From the NCBI RefSeq assembly GCF_025869515.1, contig NZ_JAOZVR010000041.1:1-64000 (forward strand): DNA of 64,000 nt, written 5' to 3'. Below the pieces are notes generated by a model, which saw only the letters and a program-made list of their open reading frames with translations, ran no database searches and was not told the origin of the DNA. The translations under genes and the position numbers were made by a program. Positions 31,729 to 34,075 of the stretch are shown here, in pieces (the stretch's first letter is position 1; each line of letters starts with the position of its first letter). Source of the stretch: Ferrovibrio sp. Lineage in GTDB: Bacteria > Pseudomonadota > Alphaproteobacteria > Ferrovibrionales > Ferrovibrionaceae.

Positions 31729-32595
31729 TCACTGGGCGGATCCTTCAAGATCGAGATCCTGCTGCCGGCGCTGTTCCTCGCGACGCGTATGCAGGTTGAG
31801 GATCGCCGCGGCGGTTTCCTCGATCGAGCGGCGGGTGACGTCGATCACCGGCCAGTTATGCTTGGTGCAGAGCTTGCGCGCGATGCTGAGTTCCTCGCGC
31901 ACGCGTTCGTCGTCCACATAGGCCGTCTCGGTTGTCTGGTTCATCGAGATCAGCCGGCTGCGGCGGATCGAGACCAGGCGGTCGGGCGAGGTGGTCAGGC
32001 CGACCACCAGGGGATTTTTCAGCAGCTCGACCTCATTCGGAATGACCAGGCCAGGCACGATCGGCACATTGGCGGTCTTGAAGCCGCGGTTTGCCAGATA
32101 GATCGAGGTCGGGGTCTTGGAGGTACGCGACACGCCGACCAGCACGATATCGGCCTTGTCGATATCCTCCAGATGCTGGCCGTCGTCATGGGCGATGGTG
32201 AAATGCATCGCATCGATGCGATGGAAATATTCCGCATCCATTTCATGCTGGCGGCCCGGCAGGTTGACCGCCTTTTCGCCGAGATACTTGCCAAAGGCCA
32301 TGATCACCGGATCGAGCACCGGCACGATCGGCAGTTTCGCCTTGGCGCAACCCTTGATCAGGATTTCGCGCAGCTCCTGGTCGACGATGGTGAACAGCAC
32401 CAGTCCGCCCATGGCGGCGATGGCTTCCACCACGCGTTCCATCTGCAGCGGCTTGCGCACCAGTGCCCAGGTGTGGGTTTCGACCTCTTCCTGGGACTTC
32501 TGGAACTGCACCAACGCCGCCTTCGCCACCGATTTGAGCGTTTCGCCGGTGGCGTCGGAAACCAGGTGAATATGCGGCCGGGCGGTTTTCGGCAT
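31729..32595 (-). CDS. ppsR: Pyruvate, phosphate dikinase regulatory protein (DUF299; RP001 type)
   Basis: A 288-residue bifunctional kinase/pyrophosphorylase family protein that in characterised members switches PPDK or PEP synthase on and off. IHLVSDATGETLKSVAKAAL opens it, VLVGVSRTSKTPTSIYLANR is the P-loop-like motif, and YLANRGFKTANVPIVPG and NPLVVGLTTSPDRLVSIR are conserved. It is the first gene left of the putative origin, equivalent to the RP001 gene of Rickettsia and its Caulobacter counterpart. Its promoter must lie in the origin gap. Confidence 0.96.
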   Translation of the reverse strand: MPKTARPHIHLVSDATGETLKSVAKAALVQFQKSQEEVETHTWALVRKPLQMERVVEAIAAMGGLVLFTIVDQELREILIKGCAKAKLPIVPVLDPVIMAFGKYLGEKAVNLPGRQHEMDAEYFHRIDAMHFTIAHDDGQHLEDIDKADIVLVGVSRTSKTPTSIYLANRGFKTANVPIVPGLVIPNEVELLKNPLVVGLTTSPDRLVSIRRSRLISMNQTTETAYVDDERVREELSIARKLCTKHNWPVIDVTRRSIEETAAAILNLHTRREEQRRQQDLDLEGSAQ

Positions 32596-32989
32596 CAGTC
32601 TTTCGCAGGTCGAATCATGGGGATAAAGGGCATAAGGCAGGGGTTTTCCCCAATCGGTTCAATTTCATGCCCGGAAGCAGGATTCCATGCAACCGGCCTG
32701 TCACCGCTGGATCGATTTTGTGACGCCCCTGTGGAAAGTGGGGAGGAACTGCAATTCCGTCACAATGCTTACCCATCCCCGTTATCCCCATAATTCCATA
32801 TTGGGATCCGGCGCCATTCTGTGCGGGTTTTGACGCGCTTATCCCCGGACAGGCGGAATCCGCTGCTCGATCCGGGAATTTGGATAGAATCCGGGATTGC
32901 CGCCGGATGACCGATTATCCCCGACTCTCACCGCACTACTGCCTCCACTATCTCTTTTAATTTAAATTAAAATAGAAGAGGAATAAGGC
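32596..32989. other. oriC: Candidate chromosomal replication origin (oriC) between ppsR and hemE
   Basis: No gene is present in this 394-bp gap. DnaA-box-like 9-mers: TGGGGATAA 32618-32626 (complement TTATCCCCA), TTTTCCCCA 32644-32652, TGTGGAAAG 32730-32738 (complement CTTTCCACA), TTATCCCCA 32782-32790, TTATCCCCG 32839-32847 and 32915-32923. Five GANTC methylation sites lie at 32612, 32681, 32856, 32887 and 32923. An 18-bp AT-only palindrome at 32955-32972 (TTTTAATTTAAATTAAAA) beside hemE is a candidate unwinding element. Flanking genes match the Caulobacter and Rickettsia origin, and genes diverge from it on both sides. The boxes carry C rather than A at position 7 of the E. coli consensus. 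Confidence 0.82.
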
Positions 32990-34075
32990 ATGAGCCCTGT
33001 TCCTGCGGCCCCGAGCATGGGGCAAAAAGCCATCCAGCCGACCAAACCCCTGTTGCGTACGCTGGCTGGCCTGCCGAGCCATCGCCCGCCGCTGTGGCTG
33101 ATGCGCCAGGCCGGCCGTTACCTGCCGGAATATCGCCAGACCCGCGCCCAGGCCGGCAGTTTCCTCGAGCTTTGCTACAATCCGGAACTGGCCGCCGAAG
33201 TCACCCTGCAGCCGATCCGGCGGTTTGGCTTCGATGCCGCCATCCTGTTCGCCGACATCTTGCTGATCCCGCAGGCGCTGGGCCAGCATCTGGCCTTCAG
33301 GGAAAACGAAGGGCCGGTGCTGGATGCAATCCGCACCTCGGGTGAACTGGCTCGCCTGAACCCCGGTGGCATCCACAAGACGCTGGGACCGGTCTACGAG
33401 GCGGTCGGGCGCATCAAGGCGGCGCTGCCCCCTGACTGCACCCTGATCGGCTTTGCCGGGGCGCCCTGGACGGTTGCGACCTATATGCTGGAAGGCAAGG
33501 GATCGAAGGAGTTTGCCGCCGCCAAGACCTGGGCCTTCGGCAATCCGCTCGGCCTGCAGACGCTGATGGAAATCCTGATCGAGGCCACGGTGGCCTATCT
33601 GGACCGCCAGGTGCAGGCCGGCGCCGAGGTGGTGCAGCTGTTCGATACCTGGGCCGGTGTGCTGCCGGAACAGGAATTCCGCAAATTCTGCATCGAACCG
33701 GTGCGTCGGATCATTGCTGCGCTGAAGGAGAAATATCCCGCGCTGCCGGTGATCGCCTTCCCGCGCGGCGCCGGTGCCCTGTACGAAGGCTATGCCCAGG
33801 CCACCGGGGCCGATGCGCTGGGGCTGGATTACACCATGCCGCTGGGCTGGACACGCGATCATCTCTGGAACAAGACCGTGGTGCAGGGCAATCTCGATCC
33901 GCGCCTCCTGGTGGTCGGCGGTTCGGCCATGGCCGAAGCCGTGCATCGCCTGCTCGCCACCTTCCAGGGCCGCAACCACATCTTCAACCTCGGCCATGGC
34001 ATCGTGCCGGAAACGCCGGTCGGCCATGTCGAGGAACTGGTCAGACTGGTGAAGGGTACGGCAACGGAAGCCTAA
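32990..34075 (+). CDS. hemE: Uroporphyrinogen decarboxylase
   Basis: A 361-residue cytoplasmic enzyme converting uroporphyrinogen III to coproporphyrinogen III. The signature PPLWLMRQAGRYLPEYR is at about residues 33-49, with the catalytic Asp in AAILFADILLIPQALG; GFAGAPWTVATYMLEGKGSK and FNLGHGIVPETPVGHVEELV are conserved. The N-terminus is about ten residues longer than usual, but ATG 32990 has a GAGGAATAAG-type site upstream. It is the first gene right of the putative origin, and its promoter overlaps the AT-rich element. hemH and hemJ follow after two unrelated genes. Confidence 0.97.
   Translation: MSPVPAAPSMGQKAIQPTKPLLRTLAGLPSHRPPLWLMRQAGRYLPEYRQTRAQAGSFLELCYNPELAAEVTLQPIRRFGFDAAILFADILLIPQALGQHLAFRENEGPVLDAIRTSGELARLNPGGIHKTLGPVYEAVGRIKAALPPDCTLIGFAGAPWTVATYMLEGKGSKEFAAAKTWAFGNPLGLQTLMEILIEATVAYLDRQVQAGAEVVQLFDTWAGVLPEQEFRKFCIEPVRRIIAALKEKYPALPVIAFPRGAGALYEGYAQATGADALGLDYTMPLGWTRDHLWNKTVVQGNLDPRLLVVGGSAMAEAVHRLLATFQGRNHIFNLGHGIVPETPVGHVEELVRLVKGTATEA

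Follow-up and report, generated by a model that had tools for sequence, protein, structure and literature searches.

The 394 bp intergenic region between ppsR and hemE, at positions 32596-32989 of the analysed stretch of Ferrovibrio sp. DNA (64,000 nucleotides, hereafter called the window), is very probably the chromosomal replication origin (oriC), of the alphaproteobacterial hemE type and orthologous in position to Cori of Caulobacter. This identification, proposed in the original prediction and based here on sequence comparison, is well supported because of the synteny, the conservation of putative DnaA boxes, the switch of GC skew and of the polarity of a KOPS-like octamer in a congener (G005), the linked parS sites and parAB genes, and the presence of genes for CtrA and CcrM. 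The gap has a GC content of 52 %, compared with approximately 65 % in its neighbourhood, and is bounded exactly as predicted by the outward-facing ATG codons of ppsR (31729-32595, minus strand, ATG at 32595; Kinase-PPPase, PF03618, COG1806/RP001 type) and hemE (32990-34075, plus strand, ATG at 32990; uroporphyrinogen decarboxylase). The hemE/RP001 interval is the known origin site in Caulobacter, where it is proven, and in Rickettsia (PMC1914354). The pair is divergent, and the gap kept, in each of the eight congeners that gave a ppsR match; a ninth congener, 72 % complete, gave none. Of 80 named alphaproteobacterial hemE loci, 46 also have the divergent arrangement. The closest named HemE among the records searched is 59 % identical.

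Six putative DnaA boxes were located in the gap from motif matches and the alignment of congener gaps. Four of them contain the 8-mer TTATCCCC, all four copies of which in the window lie inside the gap (32619-32626 on the minus strand, and from 32782, 32839 and 32915 on the plus strand), in agreement with the three plus-strand and one minus-strand TTATCCCC(A/G) 9-mers originally described. These are box 1 (TTATCCCCA, 32618-32626, minus strand), which ends in the W-box hexamer TCCCCA, box 4 (TTATCCCCA, 32782-32790, plus strand), box 5 (TTATCCCCG, 32839-32847, plus strand) and box 6 (TTATCCCCG, 32915-32923, plus strand), which is the closest to the AT-rich element and is followed by a degenerate second 9-mer. 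Two looser boxes that had been noted are also present, namely box 2 (TTTTCCCCA, 32644-32652, plus strand) and box 3 (CTTTCCACA, 32731-32739, minus strand), the latter within the conserved island CCCCTGTGGA. The hexamer TCCCCA occurs four times in the gap. Classified by the base at position 7, TTATCCACA is an A7 form, TTATCCCCA and TTATCCCCG are C7 forms and TTATCCGCA is a G7 form; the A7-type 8-mer TTATCCAC does not occur in the 64-kb window. Genome-wide, TTATCCCC is present in 38 copies in 4.89 Mb, and the 34 outside the gap are all more than 2 kb apart. In G005, searched over its whole genome, 4 of 21 copies are in the ppsR-hemE gap and form the sole cluster, which makes the cluster unique in both genomes searched. 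No open-access paper pairing TTATCCCCA with the term 'DnaA box' was found in the literature.

Alignment of the orthologous gaps, which had been suggested as a check, revealed boxes in the gap of each congener, with two to eight matches to NTWTCCMCN per gap, none being without, and fewer in the more divergent congeners. Conservation was 0.82 in the box columns and 0.87 in the AT-rich element, compared with 0.68 in the remainder of the gap. At box 2, five genomes have TTTTCCCCA in the aligned columns and three have TTATCCACG. In the tandem 9-mers near the AT-rich element the good match is either the first (TTATCCCCG) or the second (TTATCCACC), the position aligned with the degenerate 9-mer after box 6 being TTATCCACC in three congeners. 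The interchange at box 2 and in the tandem pair indicates that A7 and C7 boxes coexist and replace one another within a single genus.

Conserved islands other than the boxes were also observed. The island ATTTCATGCCCGG (32662-32674, plus strand) has the highest conservation in the gap within the genus, above that of the boxes, and CCCCTGTGG(A) at 32724-32736 is near-invariant and overlaps box 3. The complement of the latter, TCCACAGG, belongs to the 8-mers with the strongest enrichment in the class-wide gaps (28 copies, compared with 3 in the flanks). The sequence CATGCCCG was found in 11 of 23 gaps from the genus, family and class, but in only 1 of the 46 named gaps.

By nearest-neighbour calculation, duplex stability in the entire 64-kb window is lowest over the 30 bp that start at 32948, beside the boxes, and the region 32948-32978 is a putative DNA unwinding element. 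It contains the 18-bp AT-only palindrome TTTTAATTTAAATTAAAA (32955-32972), which had been reported at the hemE edge of the gap. The perfect palindrome was rejected as a conserved element because its symmetry is broken in G001 and G005, which are among the closest congeners (the others differ more), and AT-richness is what is kept. All five predicted GANTC (CcrM) sites were confirmed (32612, 32681, 32856, 32887 and 32923, spanning 32612-32927). The surplus is real against the rate in the window, which predicts 0.64 sites, but modest against random sequence, since at 50 % GC, near the composition of the gap, approximately 1.5 sites are already expected.

The position of the gap in the chromosome was assessed in G005 (a single contig of 4,264,634 bp), from which 60 stretches of 20 kb each were sampled, because the Ferrovibrio sp. 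genome itself consists of 126 contigs. The ppsR-hemE gap of G005 is at 1.307 Mb, with its antipode at 3.439 Mb, and the GC skew of the two arms, counted from 1.307 Mb, is +0.019 on the right and -0.016 on the left. In free fits to the 20-kb stretches, the optimum lay at 1.22-1.24 Mb for the switch and at 3.38-3.44 Mb for the terminus (1.22-1.23 and 3.38-3.43 Mb, respectively, in the fits with R2 0.73). With 5-kb bins the terminus was at 3.44 Mb, but the origin side was flat, positions from 0.96 to 1.32 Mb being nearly equal (R2 0.41-0.42). The skew near the G005 origin is weak, and skew alone therefore gives only a rough placement. The KOPS-like octamer GGGCAGGG has a polarity of 35:6 in the right arm and 6:44 in the left arm, which is best fitted by an origin at 1.24-1.32 Mb. 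In G005 both the sampled, coarse skew profile and the polarity of the octamer thus switch near the gap and at its antipode. Within the 64-kb window the skew does not clearly change sign at 32.6 kb.

The dnaA locus of G005, at 2.52 Mb and thus 1.2 Mb away from the gap, was ruled out as the origin of that chromosome (R2 0.013). There is one TTATCCCCC several hundred bases upstream of dnaA in G005, and the upstream region of dnaA in the Ferrovibrio sp. genome lacks a TTATCC-type box; since dnaA promoter boxes are not conserved between the two, they were not used as evidence. Sites for parS are found on the same contig as the gap (C41:68938 and 69478), approximately 36 kb from it, and are adjoined by gidA, gidB, parA and parB, as judged by inspection of the translations. 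The corresponding distance is 18 kb in G003, 21-24 kb in G006 and 29 kb in both G002 and G005; for G026 and G029, which are class genomes, it is 6-16 kb. The total number of parS sites in G005 is two, while in G006 and G003 12 of 18 and 5 of 9 perfect sites, respectively, lie away from the origin-linked cluster, some of them in close pairs or triples. A short run of N and low-complexity G/C-rich sequence at approximately 73.1-73.25 kb of contig C41 looks like an assembly artefact.

As in Caulobacter crescentus, both CtrA (75 % identical to a Caulobacter query sequence) and CcrM (E 3.7e-160 to 6pbd) are encoded in the genome. No strict CtrA site (TTAA-N7-TTAA) is present in the gap, which has three loose matches (TTWW-N7-TTWW), two of them over the AT-rich element, and control by CtrA is therefore rated as possible only. 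Strict CtrA sites are usual, though not universal, in origins of this type. Their absence was not treated as defining, because between 0 and 7 CtrA sites have been reported per alphaproteobacterial ori region (PMC1914354). For IHF, one loose match to WATCAN5WTR at 32613 overlaps box 1, and there is no match to WATCAANNNNTTR in the gap. A basal unwinding system of DnaA-trios was considered and rejected: under the published rule (PMC8287927) of a box, a spacer of up to 16 bp and at least three trios, with the box widened to TTATCCCCG, no conforming trio was found in this gap, and trio-like runs in four congeners occur only at 19-23 bp. Short additional proteins with a Bac_DnaA_C-like domain (open frames of approximately 130-330 aa) were seen besides dnaA in G001, G002, G011, G020, G021 and G026, and none in the Ferrovibrio sp. 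genome.

The original prediction had suggested that the C at position 7, where E. coli has A, may be a lineage-specific DnaA dialect. In such a case the DnaA of this lineage would have changed its specificity and the C7 boxes would have co-evolved with it. The four strong boxes in the window all have C7 and TTATCCAC is missing there, which would fit such a change. However, 31 copies of TTATCCCC and 24 of TTATCCAC were counted in the 46 divergent ppsR-hemE gaps (from the 80 named hemE loci, with 287 kb of flanks as control), compared with 3 and 5, respectively, in the flanks; the gaps are related to one another, and these copies therefore do not represent independent events. Both rank first among their anagrams in these gaps (TTATCCCC 1/280, with an anagram mean of 0.84, and TTATCCAC 1/560). 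By box type, 14 of the gaps have only C7, 7 only A7, 6 both and 19 neither. The contact region of DnaA domain IV (RPRQ...SLPEIG...RDHTTVMH) is the same in the C7-type genomes G000, G001, G002, G005 and G008 and in the A7-containing G003, G004, G006 and G007. Its contact residues, taken from a published list (PMC5043019), equal those of E. coli (1j1v) at R399, P423 and R432-T436, while M stands in place of L438, which is also the case in the DnaA of M. tuberculosis. The same C is found in the Caulobacter W-box, TCCCCA, to which DnaA binding is very weak (PMC4285127). The class-wide counts, the identical contact region and the C of the W-box together make a private dialect improbable, and the C7 boxes are best interpreted as variants of ordinary boxes that resemble the W-box, probably have a lower affinity and are recognised by an ordinary DnaA. 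By analogy with the W-box, we infer that the C7 boxes in this gap would be of low affinity.

The same comparisons bear on whether the sites belong to an origin. They could be transcription-factor operators for divergent ppsR and hemE promoters, with the true origin elsewhere nearby, since regulatory sites are usual in divergent intergenic regions and the skew places the origin only roughly. Yet one aligned site swaps to the classical TTATCCAC type in congeners, the tolerance is specific for A and C, because TTATCCGC (2 copies) and TTATCCTC (1 copy) are not enriched in the 46 gaps, the sites adjoin the DNA of lowest stability in the window, and the proven origin of Caulobacter has the same position (PMC1914354), leaving operators a very slim prospect. 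That short motifs clustered by chance in a spacer of low GC content has a negligible likelihood: 0.0027 copies of TTATCCCC are expected in 394 bp at the genome rate (probability of four or more approximately 2e-12), composition-matched anagrams fall far short of the 31 copies in the class-wide gaps, and conservation in relatives refutes it.

An hemE-type origin in this gap would operate as follows. DnaA is predicted to bind the six boxes, four TTATCCCC(A/G) and two looser, over approximately 300 bp and to oligomerise towards the hemE side, where the AT-rich element would melt. Replication would then proceed in both directions from the gap, the sister origins would be segregated by the nearby ParAB-parS system, and CcrM and CtrA may regulate the origin. 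With Cori of C. crescentus the gap shares the hemE/COG1806-RP001 interval, an AT-rich element and multiple DnaA boxes including TCCCCA W-type hexamers, but it has near-perfect TTATCCCC 9-mers instead of the TGATCCACA G-box and, unlike Cori, no strict CtrA site. The origin of Rickettsia prowazekii has the same interval and logic (PMC1914354), in a genome that differs in being AT-rich. The R-type boxes of E. coli oriC (TTATCCACA) agree at 8 of 9 positions, with the main DnaA contact residues equal, but have A at position 7 and a different gene context.

A well-supported oriC has thus been placed for this genus, belonging to the already known hemE-type origins. In ppsR-hemE origins TTATCCCC is no less common than TTATCCAC, and origin finders with a consensus such as TTATNCACA, which was used in PMC1914354 and leaves out C7 boxes, would miss most boxes in this gap. 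The near-perfect 9-mers found elsewhere in the class provide a testable link to the weak W-boxes of Caulobacter. It is conceivable, though less likely than not, that C7 boxes (TTATCCCC) constitute a functional class of DnaA sites typical of alphaproteobacterial origins, as frequent there as A7 boxes, for which the affinity of an unchanged DnaA would be lower or would depend on the bound nucleotide; if so, such origins would be built mainly of tuned weak sites rather than of a few strong ones.
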